Below, in pieces: positions 44,719 through 62,013 of a stretch of DNA of 64,000 nucleotides. The DNA is taken from contig JAOAHN010000058.1 in NCBI GenBank assembly GCA_026415215.1, forward strand, positions 1 through 64,000, read 5' to 3'. Origin of the DNA: Candidatus Hydrogenedentota bacterium. GTDB taxonomy: Bacteria; Hydrogenedentota; Hydrogenedentia; Hydrogenedentales; Hydrogenedentaceae. A program made the translations under genes and the position numbers. The stretch's first letter is position 1; every line of letters begins with the position of its first letter. The notes under the pieces are model-generated. The model was not told the DNA's origin, did not search any database, and worked only from the letters and a program-made list of their open reading frames with translations.

Positions 44719-46236
44719 TTATTTTTCTTCCCAGTGAATAGCTAACCAAAATTTATTAACCTTGTTAACCTCAATCTGAGGCGGTAGGGGTAGAGTCTTT
44801 AGATATGATTCGAATTTTTGGGGTATTAGAATTATCTTTTTCTTATCAGATTGGTTTCGTAGAAAACTCACTACTTTTTCTTCAATCTCACCTAATGCCT
44901 TATTAAAGTCTTTCTCTGCTTCCTCGCCAATCTCTATTTCGGGAACAGGTATGTGAAGGTAAAATTCCAACCCATTAAGTTCACGAGATTTTACCGTAAA
45001 AAGTTCTACTTTTTGGTATTTCGTCACCAGTGGGTTAAGATCATCGGCGAGTTGTTTCATATCTTTTGAGTTAGGTATGTAACCTGAAATACCTTTGCCT
45101 ATTATTATAATAAGTGTTTGCACTAAAGCAATTATAAGAACCTGCTTAATATTTATGATATTGTTTTCGATTCTTTTCAGGAGTATTTTTGCCATTCCTG
45201 AAGATAGGGGAATAAATAAAGGAATAATATATAGGGATAATCTTGATTTGCTTACGAAGAAGAAAATCATAGGTATGGTAAATATAAGTAAGAGGAAAAA
45301 AAACTCAATAGTATTGAATTCTGGAAAAAGTATCGGTGTTTTAGATGTTCTTTTCTCTTTTATCATTGAATACACTAAGAGAAAGATCCATAAGCCTGTT
45401 CCTAAAAGAATTGGGGCTACATACACGGGAAATATCTTGTACCATTCGGGATTCCTATCAAATTCCCCTTGGGCAAGCCTTCCAAAAGTCTCATGTAGTA
45501 GCCAGTATTTCAATAAACCGGGATATTTCCAATTTTCATAAAAATACCATCCCAATCCTATTACTATGTATATGAATATTCCTACAGGTGAAATGAAATG
45601 CCATAAACTTTCTTTGTGTTTTATCCATCTCCACATACAAAATGGAACTATTCCTAATAGCGGTATGAGTCCCATAGGACCTTTAGTAAAACATCCCAGA
45701 CCTAATCCTAACCAAAATATGTATACATAGTGCTTCTTTTTATATTTATATGCTTTCCAGAATGAATAGTATGTGATGGAGTGCCATAGTACAAGAAGTG
45801 TGTCAGTGGAGATTGCATTAGCTCCTCCTACTAAAAAAGGTGAAGTCCCATAAATCAAAGAAGCTAATACTCCTGTATTAAAGTCCCATAATTCCTTTGT
45901 AAGGAGAAATACGAACAATACTGTAAAAAGGAATGCAGGTATGAGGTAAAATCTTGCTCCCCAAGTGCTATCATCCCCGAATATTGCTAATCCGCCTGCT
46001 ATCGCAATGTAGGTAAGAGGTGGTTTTGTCCAATGGTGTTCTCCATGAATGATAGGTTCTAATAAATTACCCGATTTGAGGGTTTCTCGAGCACATAAGG
46101 CATATCTTCCTTCTGTTGTTTCGTACAATCCTCGAGTACCCTGGAACAAAGTTACACATAAGAAAGACATAAATAGGGATAAATAAAATGTTTTTCGCCA
46201 GGAATTGAAATCAGATGAAAATTCCTTGTTAAACAT
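44719..46236 (-). CDS. GT39/ArnT-type membrane glycosyltransferase
   Basis: A 505-residue GT-C glycosyltransferase with about ten membrane segments. The first periplasmic loop has TRGLYETTEGRYALCARETLKSGNLLEPIIHGEHHWTKPPLTY, the ArnT/PMT signature (compare E-x-R-YA-x-A-x-EM). It transfers a sugar from a polyprenyl-phosphate donor to a lipid, protein or glycan acceptor on the outer face of the inner membrane. The soluble C-terminus (about residues 410-505) is short. Its gene starts three bases after tspO and is the last of a pfk-tspO-GT39 run. Acceptor and sugar cannot be read. Confidence 0.87.
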   Translation of the reverse strand: MFNKEFSSDFNSWRKTFYLSLFMSFLCVTLFQGTRGLYETTEGRYALCARETLKSGNLLEPIIHGEHHWTKPPLTYIAIAGGLAIFGDDSTWGARFYLIPAFLFTVLFVFLLTKELWDFNTGVLASLIYGTSPFLVGGANAISTDTLLVLWHSITYYSFWKAYKYKKKHYVYIFWLGLGLGCFTKGPMGLIPLLGIVPFCMWRWIKHKESLWHFISPVGIFIYIVIGLGWYFYENWKYPGLLKYWLLHETFGRLAQGEFDRNPEWYKIFPVYVAPILLGTGLWIFLLVYSMIKEKRTSKTPILFPEFNTIEFFFLLLIFTIPMIFFFVSKSRLSLYIIPLFIPLSSGMAKILLKRIENNIINIKQVLIIALVQTLIIIIGKGISGYIPNSKDMKQLADDLNPLVTKYQKVELFTVKSRELNGLEFYLHIPVPEIEIGEEAEKDFNKALGEIEEKVVSFLRNQSDKKKIILIPQKFESYLKTLPLPPQIEVNKVNKFWLAIHWEEK

Positions 46237-48087: not shown

Positions 48088-51000
48088 ATGATTAAAGATT
48101 ATATAAGAGGAAAGGTGTGCATATTTCTCTTTTTATACTTTAGTTTTTTGTTTTTTAACTCCTCCGCAGATCTATACAGGATTTATGAGGGTGCTCCTAA
48201 TGGTGCTACTGGTAATCCGAATGAATGGGGGTTTGAACAAATAAGTGATGCGTGGTTGCATGCCACTCAGGTGAATCCGGGTAATCATACGATACGGATT
48301 GAATGGGGCGGTCCTTCACAGATGGATGGTGTGTATTTTCTGGTACCGGAATTAGTTTTAGGGGATAGTGGGCATATTGAAGTAGTAGCGGATACTGGAA
48401 TTCGACCGGAGATACGGCCTGATGGGGATCATCCTGTATTTACGAATAGTTCGACTACGGGTAAGATATTGAGGATAGTAGGCTATGATGAGGGGGTATA
48501 TAACCGAATTGCTTTGTATTCATCTTATTCTTCTCCGATTTTGACTACTTCAGTAAATGGGAATGGGGTTGTGGTGGTAGAGAAAGTGAATTTTATAAAG
48601 AAAGAACGGGTATGGGAGCCGTCGGTGGTGCCGGGTGCGCCTGATGGAAGTTATGTGTATTTGCAGAATGTTCCTAATCAGAAGCATCAGTTTTATATGG
48701 TTCGTTTTTTAGGTGGGGATGAGGTAGATCAGACCCTACCGGTGATGGTAATTGGTCCGATGAGTGGTATGGGTGTACTGGAGGCGTCATTACGGTATGT
48801 GGATTTTAGTTATGCGAAGGGAAGAGGAACTCGATTGGCATTGAAGAATGTTGTTCGGATGACATTGGATCAGTGTATATTTGCACCGGAGGGGGGGAGT
48901 AGTTATTCCAACAGTGCGGTAGCTGTGCGAGCAGACAGCCCTACAGCAAGTGATGGTGGTTCCCAAGTTGTGTTCTACAACTGTTCTTTCCGCAGTGGGA
49001 GTGCGAATCTGTTTGATAAATTGGGTGAGGATACTCATGTTACGGGTAATATATACCGTTTATACAAGCCAGTGTTTACGGGACCCTGTGGTGAACGGGC
49101 TTTCAATTTTCAACAAAGTGGAGCCCGAGTTGAGATATTGGGTTTAGAACCAGGCAACAATTGGTTTGATACTTCTGACGACATAGTTCCATCTCCGGTA
49201 TATTGGGTGGATATGGATGGTATGACAGCTAACACCGGAGTTTATGCTCGGATCCTCCGGGGCACAATGAGATTCTATAGAGCTAAAGGAACTATTAGGC
49301 CCTATGTAGGGTATGGAGTAGTTTCTCTCGGTGGAGAATTAACAGGATCTGTAGTAGTGGAGATGGATTCATGCTGGTGGGGGTTCGGAGCAGGGACATA
49401 TCGTTCAGGTGCGACGGGAGGGAATTATGCTCCATCATTGATTATAACTAATACTATATTTTACGGAGGGGGAGTTCAGTCGTATATTGATACTCGGGGC
49501 TTCAATGATACGCTCTCTCCTTCTGCTTATGCTACGATTCGTCTGCGTCATGTGACACTGACTTCGCCTTTGGGGAGTCCCGTTACTAATTGGCTTGTCC
49601 ACGGTCGGGCGGGCGATACTTTGTATTCTGCTGGGACAATTTTTGATGCTCCCAATGCTTCCAATCTTACTCCTGTTTGGGAAACGGGTTATGAGTGGAA
49701 AAACTTGGCATGGAATAGGAATAGTATGGATGGGAGGGGGAGTTTTCCGGTAGCACCGAATGAGCAAATTATAGTTTATGCTGACCCGAAGCTGGATGAG
49801 GTTGGAAAACTTCAGACAGGTAGTGGTGCGTTAGGTAGGTCTGGAATATCCGATCCTACTAATAGAGATTTTGAGGGCCAGAGTAGACCTTTACCACCAT
49901 CTTATGCCTCGCCCGATATTGGGGGTGATGAGGCATTTTTCCGGCCCACCGATATTTTATCTGTTCCCGAAGAAATAGAGGTTTATGACAATGTGTTAGA
50001 AGGGACTATCGTAGCGGTATTTACTGTAATTGACCCTGATCCGGGGGAACCGCATACTTTAAACTTGGTGCAAAATGGTAATGGAGCGTTTCGGTTGGAT
50101 GGTAATCAATTGGTAGTGGACTTTCCGAACGCCCTAAATGGGAGTGAGTTTCCTTATGTTACGGTTCAGGTTTGGGCTACTGACATGATGGGTTTACATT
50201 ATGACAAGACATTTTTGGTTCATGTTATTGATGCGACCCCCGCATATGTAAGCTCGGTGCGGGTTACGCAACCGCTGGAAATAGAGGTTGAATTTTCTGA
50301 GCCAATGCGAATGGATGAGTTAGGGGAAGTAGGAAATTATTCAATCTCCGGTGAGGGAAGGGGTACTTTGTTACAAAATCCGCACATGGTTACAGTGATT
50401 AGTAATAAGAAAGTGCGATTGAATTGGAACTCAGGGGAAATGAAGAACGGTGGGGATGTAACTATTACGGTAACAGGGGTGTATGATGCTCAAGGGAATC
50501 CCATAGGTATGCCGAACAGTAAAACTCATATTGGGGGAGGTGTAGGTGGAGTCCCACCAATGTTAGCCTCTATAGAAGTAGTGGGACCACGACGGATAAA
50601 TGTTGTTTTTTCCGAAGCGCTTCAAGAATCGGGTTTAGTTAGTGCACTCAATCCAAATAATTACCGTTGGTGGAAAACAAATCCACCGGGTAATTCCCCC
50701 ACAAATGTAGAGAAATTATCTAATAATCCCCCTGTCTATACGATCTCGTGGACTACAGGGCTTAGTATATCCGAAGGTGAAGAAGTGACTGTTCGTGTGG
50801 ATAATGTACAAGATTTAGCTGGGAATCCAATTGATACACAGTTTAATACAGCTTCGGATGTTTTTGATGTCATTTTACCGAAAGCAATTTCTCTATCTGC
50901 TGTTAACGAACGAACATTGAAAATAAAATATAGCAAAGACATGGGTTCATCGGCGCTTTTTGTGGGTAACTATACTCTTGGGAATCCTCCGGGAGCATCT

Positions 51001-52122
51001 GGCAAGGGCACACTTTCAATAAGGCCCTCAAGGGTAATAGTAGATGCTGAGCCGAGGACATATATATTGCAGTGGGATGAAGGAGAAATGAAAGGAGGCT
51101 CATTAGTGCAGATTGAGGTTCAGAATGTCCGTGACATATATGGCAATTTAATAGACCCCGATTGGAATACAGTTTATTGTTCAAGTGTGGGTGTGCCTCC
51201 TTATGTAGTTGATGTGAGAATAGTAGATGGTAGAAAAATCCGAGTTATATTTTCTGAACCTATGGAGGCTTATATGAGCTTTCAAGGGAGGTATTGTATA
51301 TCTGGACCTGGTAAAGGTAGTTTGAGCACAAATCCTGATTCGGTGCAGAAAGTAGTAGATGGGAACTATCTCCTTATATGGAATGAGGGCAGTTTATTGC
51401 AAGGAGAAGATATTAGTGTTAGTGTAGTAAGCGGAGCGGACCTTGCAGGGAATTCTTTAGTCGAACCCAAAGGCAAGACGATAACCAATAGGATTAAAAT
51501 TACTGCAAACCTTTATAATCGAAATGTATATCTTGGAGATCAATTCATTCTAAACTTTAGTTATGTTGGCGGTGAGGGAGATGTGCATTTCCAATGGTAT
51601 AAGGATGGTCTTCCTGTAGGTCCTGACTCAAATGTTTGGACAAAGGATGAAATTTTATCGACAGATAGAGGTGAGTACTATTGTGTAGTTAGCGACTCCA
51701 GAGAGGAGAAAGTCTCTACTAACAAAATGTACTTAGGAGTGTTTCCTCGAATGGAAATAGAAGAACAGCCGATAGGTGCGATTGTAACCGATGGAGATGC
51801 CTATGTATTAAGAGTGAGAGTAAAAGGAGGTATTCCTCCTATAACTTATCAGTGGATAAAGGACGGATTGAATTTAGGTGTAGATACCTCAGAGTTGGTA
51901 ATTGACAGTATGTCTCCTGAAGATGAAGGTTACTATTGGGTAGAAATATCAGATGAGCAAGAAACTGTTCAGTCTGAAAAAGTGTTTTTGAAGTATTCTA
52001 AGGGAGTACCAATATCAACTCAGTTAACCCTTATATCCTTGTTATCACTTATTTCGCTGATAGGGGTTATAAAGATTTACAAAAAGTATAAAAAAAGGTC
52101 TCGATGTGATTTAGTCTGTTGA
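48088..52122 (+). CDS. Large surface protein: beta-helix, cadherin-like, four SbsA-like and two Ig-like domains
   Basis: A 1344-residue protein with a signal peptide (CIFLFLYFSFLFFNSSADL). Residues about 30-610 look like a right-handed beta-helix (many short turns such as VVVVEKVNFIKK, VVFYNCSFRSGSANL). Then come a cadherin-like domain (VYDNVLEGTIVAVFTVIDPDPGEPHTLNL), four SbsA-Ig-like repeats (ending FSEPM, FSEAL, YSKDM, FSEPM), and two Ig-like domains (FQWYKDGLPVG...YYCVVSD and YQWIKDGLNLG...YYWVEIS). A C-terminal membrane helix followed by KIYKKYKKRSR resembles a tripartite surface-sorting tail, although no named motif such as LPXTG or PEP is present. It probably forms a stalk on the cell surface; function unknown. 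GGGAGAG precedes the ATG. Confidence 0.75.
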   Translation: MIKDYIRGKVCIFLFLYFSFLFFNSSADLYRIYEGAPNGATGNPNEWGFEQISDAWLHATQVNPGNHTIRIEWGGPSQMDGVYFLVPELVLGDSGHIEVVADTGIRPEIRPDGDHPVFTNSSTTGKILRIVGYDEGVYNRIALYSSYSSPILTTSVNGNGVVVVEKVNFIKKERVWEPSVVPGAPDGSYVYLQNVPNQKHQFYMVRFLGGDEVDQTLPVMVIGPMSGMGVLEASLRYVDFSYAKGRGTRLALKNVVRMTLDQCIFAPEGGSSYSNSAVAVRADSPTASDGGSQVVFYNCSFRSGSANLFDKLGEDTHVTGNIYRLYKPVFTGPCGERAFNFQQSGARVEILGLEPGNNWFDTSDDIVPSPVYWVDMDGMTANTGVYARILRGTMRFYRAKGTIRPYVGYGVVSLGGELTGSVVVEMDSCWWGFGAGTYRSGATGGNYAPSLIITNTIFYGGGVQSYIDTRGFNDTLSPSAYATIRLRHVTLTSPLGSPVTNWLVHGRAGDTLYSAGTIFDAPNASNLTPVWETGYEWKNLAWNRNSMDGRGSFPVAPNEQIIVYADPKLDEVGKLQTGSGALGRSGISDPTNRDFEGQSRPLPPSYASPDIGGDEAFFRPTDILSVPEEIEVYDNVLEGTIVAVFTVIDPDPGEPHTLNLVQNGNGAFRLDGNQLVVDFPNALNGSEFPYVTVQVWATDMMGLHYDKTFLVHVIDATPAYVSSVRVTQPLEIEVEFSEPMRMDELGEVGNYSISGEGRGTLLQNPHMVTVISNKKVRLNWNSGEMKNGGDVTITVTGVYDAQGNPIGMPNSKTHIGGGVGGVPPMLASIEVVGPRRINVVFSEALQESGLVSALNPNNYRWWKTNPPGNSPTNVEKLSNNPPVYTISWTTGLSISEGEEVTVRVDNVQDLAGNPIDTQFNTASDVFDVILPKAISLSAVNERTLKIKYSKDMGSSALFVGNYTLGNPPGASGKGTLSIRPSRVIVDAEPRTYILQWDEGEMKGGSLVQIEVQNVRDIYGNLIDPDWNTVYCSSVGVPPYVVDVRIVDGRKIRVIFSEPMEAYMSFQGRYCISGPGKGSLSTNPDSVQKVVDGNYLLIWNEGSLLQGEDISVSVVSGADLAGNSLVEPKGKTITNRIKITANLYNRNVYLGDQFILNFSYVGGEGDVHFQWYKDGLPVGPDSNVWTKDEILSTDRGEYYCVVSDSREEKVSTNKMYLGVFPRMEIEEQPIGAIVTDGDAYVLRVRVKGGIPPITYQWIKDGLNLGVDTSELVIDSMSPEDEGYYWVEISDEQETVQSEKVFLKYSKGVPISTQLTLISLLSLISLIGVIKIYKKYKKRSRCDLVC

Positions 52123-54076: not shown

Positions 54077-55135
54077 ATGGAAAGAAGTGATAAGGTAACG
54101 CTATTAGTCCTTTATAGTATAGTGTTGATTGGGTTTGGCATATATTATTACTCTTTCACCATTCTCTCAGAATATCATAAAATTAAAGACCCCCAGAATT
54201 ACTTGTATAGGATTAAAAGAAATTTAGATTCGGGAAGATATGAAGTAGCTGAGAAGGAAATCAGGGAAGTAATTCAAACATTTAGACCTCCTGAGCCTGA
54301 AGTGTTTGAATTGTTGCATAGGGTTACTAAATATACAAAGGGGGGGGGCAATGAAGAAAGGCTCGAATTGCGAAAGGAAATTTACAGGTTATTAGATACC
54401 TGTGGTTCGGCAGAGATGGGTAAGGATAAATTTATATTGGACAGCATCAGGGGAAAATTGAAATCATCATATAATTTAGATAAAAACCAGATACAAATAG
54501 TTCGCTCTGTATGGAAGAATCTAATTGCTAATCCCTGGAAATGTTTTGCAGAGTTTGGAATTAGTGAATCCGAGATTCTTGACCTACTTATTCTTTCTGG
54601 TGGCGAAATATGTTTTGGTTCAAATATAGGTAATACTGGGGTATCATTTGATGGAGACATTCTTGTATTAAGTGAAGGTAGTTCAGATGGTAGCGGAGCG
54701 CAGATTTGGTATCAGGGACGAAACTATGGAGGTAGCCGACGAGGTTTTTATGTTGTAATTATGACCTTGTCGCCACATAGGGTGATTCGGTCGGATAGAT
54801 TTGATGTTTGGGAGAGCAAAAATGAAGCTATAAGAATGGCACAATTTTTAGATGAGATTCCAGAGAGGCATATAGGTATTTTTGCCGTTTCAGATGAGGC
54901 ATCCGAAAATATGACTCCCACTCTTGAAGAATCGCTCATTAAATTTGGGTTCGCAAGAAGAACCTATGAAGGATGGGACAAAAAATTTTTTGGTTATTCT
55001 TATGCTTTTGCTGGCATCGGTGTGAAGGGAGCAAGTGAGGGCTCTGCTATTCAGAATTGGGCTAAATATGAACCAGGAAAGCGCAAAATTCCAGTGGCTA
55101 TCGTAGGTATACTTAAAGGAGTGGTAGAAAGGTGA
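54077..55135 (+). CDS. Membrane-anchored protein with an ILEI/PANDER (FAM3-like) domain
   Basis: About 352 residues from ATG 54077, which has CAGGAAGG nine bases upstream; ATG 54053 is a weaker alternative. One N-terminal membrane helix (VTLLVLYSIVLIGFGIYYYSF) is followed by a helical region to residue 170. Residues about 178-348 match the ILEI/PANDER (FAM3, GG) domain: SFDGDILVLSEGSSDGSGAQIW, GGSRRGFYVVIMTLSPHRVIRSDRFDVWES, IGIFAVSDEASENMTPTLEESLIKFG, YAFAGIGVKGASEGSAIQNW. The eukaryotic counterparts are FAM3 cytokine-like proteins and the carbohydrate-binding stem domain of POMGNT1. The start codon of the WecA-type gene overlaps its stop, so the two are coupled. A glycan- or lectin-like role is inferred from that. 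Confidence 0.72.
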   Translation: MERSDKVTLLVLYSIVLIGFGIYYYSFTILSEYHKIKDPQNYLYRIKRNLDSGRYEVAEKEIREVIQTFRPPEPEVFELLHRVTKYTKGGGNEERLELRKEIYRLLDTCGSAEMGKDKFILDSIRGKLKSSYNLDKNQIQIVRSVWKNLIANPWKCFAEFGISESEILDLLILSGGEICFGSNIGNTGVSFDGDILVLSEGSSDGSGAQIWYQGRNYGGSRRGFYVVIMTLSPHRVIRSDRFDVWESKNEAIRMAQFLDEIPERHIGIFAVSDEASENMTPTLEESLIKFGFARRTYEGWDKKFFGYSYAFAGIGVKGASEGSAIQNWAKYEPGKRKIPVAIVGILKGVVER

Positions 55136-56214
55136 CAAATATTGGGATAACTCACTATTTGTTTGTCTTCATTGTAACCTTCTTGATAACGGCTGTCTTG
55201 GTGCCGGTCTTCAGATTATTAGCTCTCAGACTTGGAGTTGTTGATATGCCTGATATGAAAAGGAAGATTCACAAGAAGCCCATACCTTATCTTGGAGGAC
55301 TCGCCTTTTATTTTGCCTATTTGGTGGCTTGTTTGTATATTCAGCGGTTTCATCCCCAGTTGTGGGATCATCGGTTATTTCTTATGAGCATTGTGGGGAC
55401 TATATTAGTGCTGTTGGGTCTACTTGATGACCTGATTTCTATACCTGCGAGTAAGAAATTAATTGTGGAGATTTTGTTAGGACTTCTTTTGTATTACTGG
55501 GGTTTTAGAACTACTGCTGTGGCACATCCTTTGGGGGGAACTTGGAATTTAGGATGGCTTGCTCTGTTAATTACTCCCCTATGGATTGTAGGCGTAATGA
55601 ACGCAATTAATTTTTCTGATGGTTTAGATGGATTAGCAGCAGGACAAGTAGCCATTTGCTCCGCTACTATATTTGCAATCGCCTTCAGAAACGGTCAAAC
55701 TTTCACCTGTATAGTTATGAGCATGTTGTTGGGCTGTTCTTTGGCATTTCTAATTTATAATTCCCATCCCGCATCAGTTTTTATGGGAGACACTGGAGCC
55801 TTATTTTTAGGTTTTGTCCTCGGTTGTGCCACGCTCGTTGAACGGAGGAAAGGGATTACTATGGTTGCTCTTACCGTGCCAATGGTGGTGCTTGCGGTGC
55901 CTATTTTAGATACATTTTTAAGCTTTATTAGGAGGATGAAAAGGGCGGTTAGAGGAGGCTTTTTCCTCCCAGATAAGGACCATCTTCATCATCGCCTTTT
56001 GAAATTAGGTTTAACTCAGCGCCAAGCAGTTTTTTCTCTATATTATTTTTCGATTTGTATGGGATTTCTCGCTTATATAACTTCGCTGTTGCCTTCAGAA
56101 TATACCTTCCTTGTGTTATTTCTTGTGATAATGTTGGTTGGAATGGGCGTCGTTATTCTTCACTTCATAGAATCACTAAAAGATGAAGAAAATTTGAAGA
56201 AGATAGACGGTTGA
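55132..56214 (+). CDS. WecA/TagO-type undecaprenyl-phosphate phosphoglycosyltransferase
   Basis: A 360-residue integral membrane enzyme that transfers a sugar phosphate, usually N-acetylglucosamine 1-phosphate, to undecaprenyl phosphate to start O-antigen, teichoic or capsule polymers. Family motifs are present: RKIHKKPIPYLGG, GLLDDL with D99 and D100 (magnesium), NAINFSDGLDGLA near residues 162-171, VFMGDTGA near 224, and DKDHLHHRL near 286. About ten membrane helices are seen. The start is GTG 55132, overlapping the stop of the ILEI gene by four bases. MraY is excluded because this has the WecA/TagO-type HxHH loop and sequence. A DapA-family gene converges downstream. Confidence 0.92.
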   Translation: MTNIGITHYLFVFIVTFLITAVLVPVFRLLALRLGVVDMPDMKRKIHKKPIPYLGGLAFYFAYLVACLYIQRFHPQLWDHRLFLMSIVGTILVLLGLLDDLISIPASKKLIVEILLGLLLYYWGFRTTAVAHPLGGTWNLGWLALLITPLWIVGVMNAINFSDGLDGLAAGQVAICSATIFAIAFRNGQTFTCIVMSMLLGCSLAFLIYNSHPASVFMGDTGALFLGFVLGCATLVERRKGITMVALTVPMVVLAVPILDTFLSFIRRMKRAVRGGFFLPDKDHLHHRLLKLGLTQRQAVFSLYYFSICMGFLAYITSLLPSEYTFLVLFLVIMLVGMGVVILHFIESLKDEENLKKIDG

Positions 56215-60128: not shown

Positions 60129-60146
60129 TTTCTCAAGGATTTGAAT

Positions 60147-60989
60147 ATGTTAGTGTATATCTTTGGTAGCAAGGGACAATTGGGTAGAGAGTTAGTCGAA
60201 GTATTTCAAGGTGAATACCAGGTTGAAGGTTTTGATTTACCTGAGTTTGATATTACCAATCCTTCGATGGTTTATTCATTGTTAGGTAAAGAGGCTCCTG
60301 ACCTTGTGATCAACTCCGCCGCCTATACTAATGTGGACAAGGCTGAAGAGGAAATAGACCAAGCGTTTTTGGTTAATGAAGTAGGGGCAAGGTTAATTGC
60401 TGATTTAGCAAATCAGTGGAAAGCTCCAGTGGTGTATTACAGCACTGACTACATCTTTGACGGTATGCAGAGGAGACCATACAAAGAGAGTGATGTTCCA
60501 AACCCCTTAAATGTGTATGGTCAGACTAAGTTGGCAGGAGAGCGAGCAACAAAAGTTGCAAATCCTAAGCACTATATATTGAGAACGGCGTGGCTATATG
60601 GCTTCGGTGGTAATAATTTTATTGAGAAAATGATCTCTTTAGTTCAGACAAGGGAAAAGGTGGAGGTCTCAGAGGACGAAATAGGCTCGCCTACTTATGC
60701 ATTTGACCTTGCCCAAATTACGAAAGAGATTGTTAAGACTCAAGCTTATGGTGTGTATCATGCAGTTAATAGTGGAGAATGTTCTCGTTATAGTTTGATC
60801 AAAGAGGCGTTCTCTCTGTTGAAAATAGAAATCCCAATTGAGCCTTGTTCAAGGACAAAGTTTTCCTTACCAGCTAAGAGACCTGCTTATTCTGTGCTTG
60901 ATAACTCTAAGCTTAGTAATATATTAGGTCGCCAAATAAGAAGTTGGAGTGAGGCTCTTAGGGATTACATCTCAAGGAGGACTCGTTGA
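60147..60989 (+). CDS. rmlD: dTDP-4-dehydrorhamnose reductase-like
   Basis: Started at ATG 60147 (AAGGA seven bases upstream); the track start TTG 60141 is too close to that site. It has 280 residues. The enzyme reduces dTDP-4-keto-rhamnose to dTDP-rhamnose with NAD(P)H. The Rossmann motif GSKGQLG, DITNPSMV, NSAAYTNVDKAEE, STDYIFDG, the catalytic Tyr-Lys pair in YGQTKLAGE, and the RTAWLYG motif are all present. The C-terminus (RPAYSVLDNSKL) is typical of RmlD. It is four bases ahead of rmlB. rmlA and rmlC are not in the window, so the pathway is incomplete here. Confidence 0.92.
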   Translation: MLVYIFGSKGQLGRELVEVFQGEYQVEGFDLPEFDITNPSMVYSLLGKEAPDLVINSAAYTNVDKAEEEIDQAFLVNEVGARLIADLANQWKAPVVYYSTDYIFDGMQRRPYKESDVPNPLNVYGQTKLAGERATKVANPKHYILRTAWLYGFGGNNFIEKMISLVQTREKVEVSEDEIGSPTYAFDLAQITKEIVKTQAYGVYHAVNSGECSRYSLIKEAFSLLKIEIPIEPCSRTKFSLPAKRPAYSVLDNSKLSNILGRQIRSWSEALRDYISRRTR

Positions 60990-60993
60990 GAAG

Positions 60994-62013
60994 ATGGAGA
61001 AGATACTTGTAACTGGAGGTGCAGGTTTTATCGGTTCTGCGTTTGTTCGGAACATGCTCAATTGGTATAAAGATGTGTACATAGTAAATCTTGATAAACT
61101 AACCTATGCAGGGAATCTCGATAATCTGAAAGGCATAGATGAAGAAAGGCATACTTTTATCCATGGAGATATTTGTGATTATGAAGTAGTGGCTAAAGCC
61201 TTAGAAGGATGTGACTATGTAGTGAACTTTGCTGCAGAGACCCATGTAGATAGAAGCCTTATGAGAGGTGCGGTGGATTTCCTTAGAACTAACATAGAAG
61301 GTGTATATCAACTTTTATCTATTGGGAAGGAGAAGAAGAACATTAAGAAGATAGTGCTAATTTCTACTGATGAGGTATATGGTAGTAGGGATGAAGGCTC
61401 TGCAGTTGAGACTGACCCGGTTAATCCGAGAAATCCATACAGTGTTTCAAAATGTGCCGGTGAATTAATGGGTTTAGCTTTCTACTACTCTTTTCACCTC
61501 CCTGTGGTTATTACTCGTGGATGTAACACTTATGGACCTTATCAGTATCCGGAAAAAGTTTTGCCACTTTTCATTACAAATGCACTGGAGAATAAACCTT
61601 TACCACTTTATAAGGGTGGAGAGCACAATATCAGAGATTGGCTATATGTTGACGACCACTGCAAAGCAATAGATTTGATTATGAGGGAAGGAGAACCTGG
61701 GCATATTTATAACATATCTGCCGGTTTTGAAAAACAGAATATTGAGGTTACAAAAAAAGTTTTGGAATTGACTGGTAAGGACGAATCTTTAATCCAATGG
61801 GTTCCTGATAGACCTGGGCATGATAAACGCTACTCTATGAATTCTGATAAGATTAGAAAATTGGGATGGAACCCCTTAGTATCTTGGGAAGAAGGGATAG
61901 AGAGAACTGTTAAATGGTATAAGGAGAACGAATGGTGGTGGAAGAAAATAAAAGAAGGAGAATTTAGGGAATACTATAGAAAACAATATATAGATAGAAC
62001 TGAAAAAACTTAG
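60994..62013 (+). CDS. rmlB: dTDP-glucose 4,6-dehydratase-like
   Basis: The start at ATG 60994 gives 339 residues and the usual N-terminus MEKILVTGGAGFIGS; AAGGAGG lies 13 bases away, long but the only clear site, and inside rmlD. The track start at 60949 overlaps rmlD. Motifs: GGAGFIG, NFAAETHVDRSL, STDEVYG, and catalytic Tyr-Lys in NPYSVSKCAGE, followed by TRGCNTYGPYQYPEKVLP and DWLYVDDHCKAIDLI. This is close to RmlB of short-chain dehydrogenases and forms dTDP-4-keto-6-deoxyglucose. A small DUF6485 gene follows after 17 bases. Confidence 0.95.
   Translation: MEKILVTGGAGFIGSAFVRNMLNWYKDVYIVNLDKLTYAGNLDNLKGIDEERHTFIHGDICDYEVVAKALEGCDYVVNFAAETHVDRSLMRGAVDFLRTNIEGVYQLLSIGKEKKNIKKIVLISTDEVYGSRDEGSAVETDPVNPRNPYSVSKCAGELMGLAFYYSFHLPVVITRGCNTYGPYQYPEKVLPLFITNALENKPLPLYKGGEHNIRDWLYVDDHCKAIDLIMREGEPGHIYNISAGFEKQNIEVTKKVLELTGKDESLIQWVPDRPGHDKRYSMNSDKIRKLGWNPLVSWEEGIERTVKWYKENEWWWKKIKEGEFREYYRKQYIDRTEKT

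Follow-up and report, generated by a model that had tools for sequence, protein, structure and literature searches.

Bacterial pathways that build envelope polymers compete for a shared lipid carrier, and the control of their initiating step is an open question. One enzyme that initiates envelope sugar polymers is WecA. In the little-known bacterial phylum Hydrogenedentota, a WecA-type gene lies directly downstream of a gene for a membrane protein with an ILEI/FAM3 domain. The locus, found in a stretch of 64,000 nucleotides (hereafter the window) from a member of the phylum whose nearest named relative is Candidatus Hydrogenedens, raises the question of what such a protein might do for an initiating enzyme. 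The conservation of the pair, together with fusions of the membrane anchor to WecA in other genomes, suggests that WecA has a so far undescribed helper that senses or handles sugar; a search of the literature for a bacterial ILEI-WecA pair found none. If this is correct, a lectin-fold subunit attached outside the initiating enzyme would couple the status of the polymer directly to initiation, and the FAM3/POMGNT1-stem fold would assist enzymes of sugar transfer in bacteria and animals alike. Such a bacterial role of the fold would also bear on the function of the FAM3 proteins.

The two proteins encoded by the locus

The first gene (54077..55135, + strand, ATG start at 54077) encodes a protein of 352 residues, predicted to be anchored in the membrane by a single pass, and its homologues start at about the same position. 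The sequence-only reading had placed an ILEI/FAM3 domain in this protein, with a profile match set beforehand as the test. The Pfam family ILEI (PF15711) matched residues 222-295 with E=5.9e-11 and 43.2 bits, the gathering cut-off being 27, and the structure prediction described below agreed. The domain occurs in a single copy in the window's genome. ILEI was the sole Pfam domain above cut-off in the protein, and a glycosyltransferase catalytic domain of the POMGNT1 type was absent. UDPGP was considered as a second Pfam domain and rejected, its E-value of 0.062 being below cut-off.

The AlphaFold model, based on a 16-row alignment (pLDDT 87.7, pTM 0.85), consisted of a long N-terminal helix (residues 5-37), a helical region extending to about residue 173 and then the ILEI domain, an architecture that differs from the secreted single-domain build of the FAM3 cytokines. 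The earlier description of the domain stood, with the refinement that the N-terminal part is a transmembrane (TM) anchor followed by TPR-like helices. The anchor helix (54089..54187, +) was identified from the model, a test with an anchor HMM and hydropathy. The TPR-like region, residues 39-151 (54191..54529, +), was assigned from the AlphaFold helices and is supported by a TPR_14 match in the homologue L018; designed TPR proteins were also matched by the profile of the alignment (A1), with weak E-values. In several members, including that of the window, the charges flanking the anchor are weakly biased, so the in-to-out orientation of the anchor is not firm.

The PF15711 match covers the core of the ILEI domain, which in the model spans about residues 170-345 (54584..55111, +) and is predicted to be periplasmic. 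The suggested relationship to FAM3 and the POMGNT1 stem was strong at the level of the fold. A Foldseek search of the PDB returned FAM3B (E 2.3e-8), FAM3C, FAM3A, TMEM2 and the POMGNT1 stem, all with a probability of 1.00, and the TM-scores by target were 0.72 for FAM3C and up to 0.81 for the POMGNT1 stem. The viral matches were phage tail-fibre hinge proteins and giant-virus proteins. The homologues diverge rapidly over the whole protein, with identities down to about 20%.

The second gene (55132..56214, +) encodes a WecA-type polyprenyl-phosphate sugar-1-phosphate transferase (PNPT) of 360 residues, assigned by its Pfam family (Glycos_transf_4, PF00953, E 4.6e-37), its clade and its catalytic motifs, DD, NAINFSDGLDGLA, FMGDTGA and DHLHHRL. 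The best NCBIfam match was ECA_wecA (TIGR02380), with a score of 134 bits that is below the cut-off of 326. A search of the phylum with the WecA protein gave 23 sequences at 47-100% identity, the remainder being at most 41% identical. These 23 sequences form one clade (support 98/99) that includes all of the ILEI-paired WecAs, and the catalytic motifs are retained across it, the HLHH motif being divergent in G028. A second, more distant WecA-type gene (G000:C116; L153:3659-8803) adjoins genes for a 963-aa Wzy_C protein (polymerase/ligase) and a GT4 enzyme in the window's genome, and the ILEI-linked WecA is thus not the sole one there.

As had been claimed, the stop codon of the ILEI gene (TGA, 55133-55135) overlaps the GTG start of the WecA-type gene at 55132, giving a 4-bp GTGA (55132..55135, +). 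A scan for promoters and terminators gave a signal no greater than that in shuffled sequences.

Conservation of the pair and ILEI domains elsewhere

A full-length-type ILEI protein was found in 18 of 68 Hydrogenedentota genomes. The eighteenth genome, G010, was left out of the pair count because its contig ends inside the ILEI gene. A WecA-type gene was directly downstream on the same strand in all 17 assessable genomes, which represent 9 genera and 5 families of the phylum. The stop/start overlap has the form NTGA in 16 of these pairs and TAATG in the other. The flanking genes are common within a genus and differ between lineages, which indicates that the pair has persisted in changing surroundings, and its recurrence in 17 genomes suggests that the pairing is more than chance. 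GT4 glycosyltransferase genes occur near the pair in some lineages other than the window's genus, and no Wzx, Wzy or export gene was recurrent in the neighbourhoods of the pair.

Several other features were observed around the locus. In the window, RmlD- and RmlB-like genes of the dTDP-rhamnose type (60141-62013) lie a few kb from the pair, and Rml-like genes are also found near it in members of the genus, as far as the contigs reach. A PMT/ArnT-like membrane glycosyltransferase is encoded at 44719-46236, and a protein of 1344 residues, carrying Big_5 and Ig-like domains and ending in a hydrophobic segment, at 48088-52122. In one genome (G002:C3:10478-11505), the ILEI gene is apparently split by a frameshift into two overlapping frames, as a result of either sequencing error or decay.

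Outside Hydrogenedentota, ILEI domains were present in 20 of 318 genomes of other phyla and in 2 of 195 genomes of the phylum to which L031 belongs. WecA was adjacent to ILEI in none of the 20 neighbourhoods from other phyla, so that the recurrent pairing expected from the sequence-only reading held for Hydrogenedentota and not for these neighbourhoods. Several of the ILEI proteins of other phyla are YfhO or PMT_2-type membrane proteins with the ILEI domain near the C-terminal end, as are two from Hydrogenedentota, L007 and L022. Large glycosyltransferase-like proteins of this kind were noted in several phyla (L007, L022, L031 and L143-L150). Membrane glycosyltransferase-like proteins are thus a recurrent setting of bacterial ILEI domains, a theme of which the WecA pairing is a Hydrogenedentota form.

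Sugar-contact residues and related systems

In the POMGNT1 stem, the sugar contacts are Arg129, Asp179 and Arg207; sugar binding is also known for FAM3C and for Fam3L2 of C. elegans (PMC9802357). Phages employ the ILEI fold as a carbohydrate-binding module, and that of a streptococcal phage keeps the equivalents of Arg129 and Asp179 (PMC9437275). Profile alignment, in which the POMGNT1 numbering was set from the 50-residue distance between 129 and 179 in the PDB chain instead of from coordinates, aligned R222 (54740..54742, +) with Arg129 and D273 (54893..54895, +) with Asp179; these positions are Arg in 15 of 16 homologues and Asp in 13 of 16, respectively. The position of Arg207 is Arg in 11 of 16 homologues, Ser in the window (S308, 54998..55000, +) and Gly in its three genus mates. 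The equivalent of Asp179 is lost in L002, L017 and L018. The residues that are kept suggest that the ILEI domain binds sugar, while the substitutions at the Arg207 position and the loss of the Asp179 equivalent in the three homologues were counted against a glycan-binding role. Of the earlier proposal of a glycan-recognition or export partner, recognition is consistent with the retention of two of the three contact residues, and nothing favoured export over recognition or regulation.

The protein resembles the stem of POMGNT1, the animal O-mannose GlcNAc transferase, in its fold, two of the three contact residues, the single N-terminal TM anchor and the location of a lectin-type module beside a sugar-transferring enzyme. 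However, POMGNT1 is a Golgi protein with its own catalytic domain in the same chain, whereas in the bacterial pair an unrelated polytopic PNPT is a protein of its own and the ILEI domain forms the C-terminal part of its partner. FAM3A-D (ILEI, PANDER) share the Pfam family and fold but are secreted single-domain signalling proteins, while the bacterial protein is membrane anchored and has TPR-like helices and an enzyme partner. The ILEI domains of phage tail fibres (the gp35 hinge connector and Tal CBM_1) share the fold and a proposed function as carbohydrate-binding modules, but belong to adhesion devices and have no enzyme partner of the WecA kind. The partner enzyme has the Pfam family and catalytic motifs of the WecA/TagO/MraY superfamily; we know of no WecA with an ILEI partner or an N-terminal anchor helix.

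Anchor-WecA fusions and the proposed role of the ILEI protein

Evidence beyond the sequence-only reading was provided by seven members of the WecA clade that have no ILEI gene (G041, G004, G005, G006, G015, G011 and G012); the ILEI profile gave zero matches in their genomes. Each of the seven WecAs is extended N-terminally, and the extension contains one more TM helix, similar to the ILEI anchor. When compared with a profile of the anchor, the extensions scored 33, 32, 17, 17, 14, 11 and 11 bits, the two weakest scores (11 bits) depending partly on kinship with G015, while the best unrelated sequence of 407 N-termini scored 5.5 bits and WecAs outside the clade 3.5 bits or less. The extension of G015, SPWARTLALWAVAGAVFGVFNAVYWPLRA, can be compared with the anchor consensus, tplvrvvvlWlivalvFalFnavywpvsq. 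On the tree, the fused state requires at least two changes, on well-supported branches. The simplest reading is that in-frame loss of the ILEI part joined the anchor to WecA at least two independent times. The reverse order, with the fused form first, is possible, and in either order of events the sequences indicate that the anchor and WecA belong together.

In a model of one fused form, the anchor helix (pLDDT 93-98) was followed by an 11-residue linker and then TM1. Lehrer reportedly found in 2007 that the N-terminus of E. coli WecA is periplasmic. An in-to-out anchor with a short linker would fit this location, so that the topology agrees with the fusion. Since an anchor-like segment is fused to WecA in the members that lack ILEI, the anchor of the ILEI protein probably docks on WecA.

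The reading that we favour, and consider slightly more probable than not, is that the two genes encode an initiating phosphoglycosyltransferase in complex with a periplasmic glycan-binding subunit, translationally coupled to it and anchored on WecA. The ILEI protein would be held in the inner membrane by its one N-terminal TM helix, with the TPR-like helices and the lectin domain outside. Translational coupling through the NTGA overlap would ensure that both proteins are made together, and the anchor helix would pack against WecA. The ILEI domain would bind a periplasmic sugar, most probably the glycan made by the pathway or a lipid-linked intermediate of it, and binding would either tune the activity of WecA or keep the growing product near the enzyme complex. 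The physical complex, the periplasmic location and the sugar binding are inferred; which way regulation would run and which polymer is made are guesses. There is a precedent for control at initiation in Myxococcus, where EpsW activates the initiating phosphoglycosyltransferase EpsZ (PMC12802240). There, as proposed here, a separate protein controls the initiating enzyme, but in Myxococcus a cytoplasmic response regulator (EpsW) acts on a monotopic enzyme (EpsZ), in contrast to a membrane-anchored lectin-fold protein and a polytopic enzyme here.

A rather unlikely elaboration is that the protein is a periplasmic glycan sensor attached to WecA by its anchor, through which the quantity or state of the exported glycan exerts feedback, across the inner membrane, on the first committed step of synthesis. 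The anchor-only fusions would then be sensorless versions.

The fusions can also be read in another way, to which we give a similarly low probability, with the anchor as the working part, a TM helix that stabilises or orients WecA, and the ILEI domain as an optional add-on with no essential sugar role. The seven genomes that keep the anchor fused to WecA and lack the ILEI domain favour this explanation; the ILEI part is dispensable in these clade members, which was counted against the glycan-binding subunit. There is also precedent for the binding of single TM helices to members of this superfamily, in that the phage PhiX174 lysis protein E acts on MraY (PMC4790310). Against this explanation, 17 genomes of five families retain the ILEI domain with most of its sugar-contact residues despite the rapid divergence of the protein. 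The seven genomes are a natural deletion of ILEI, which makes the question directly testable.

It is improbable that the ILEI protein is merely co-expressed with WecA and acts after initiation, holding, orienting or handing on the exported glycan for retention, chain length or attachment. A lectin fold predicted to lie outside the membrane, the C-terminal ILEI domains of the YfhO/PMT_2-type proteins in other phyla and the GT4 genes near the pair in some lineages would suit such a role. However, WecA is the constant partner, no Wzx, Wzy or export gene recurs alongside, and the fusion of the anchor to WecA argues for contact with WecA itself. A gene order that is accidental or simply left over from common ancestry, without any functional link, which would agree with the restriction of every pair found to one phylum, is very improbable given that the pair and the NTGA overlap were retained while the neighbours were reshuffled between lineages, and that anchor and WecA are fused in at least two separate lineages.

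Two other kinds of ILEI protein were observed. In the phylum of G297 (family f45), L138, L140 and L158 are proteins of about 440-475 residues that combine a TM segment, a helical region and an ILEI domain without a WecA neighbour, and a protein of this type was matched in all four genomes examined. L135 and L136 encode an ILEI protein that looks secreted, and their neighbourhood is conserved and includes an ELM1-like gene (PF06258).
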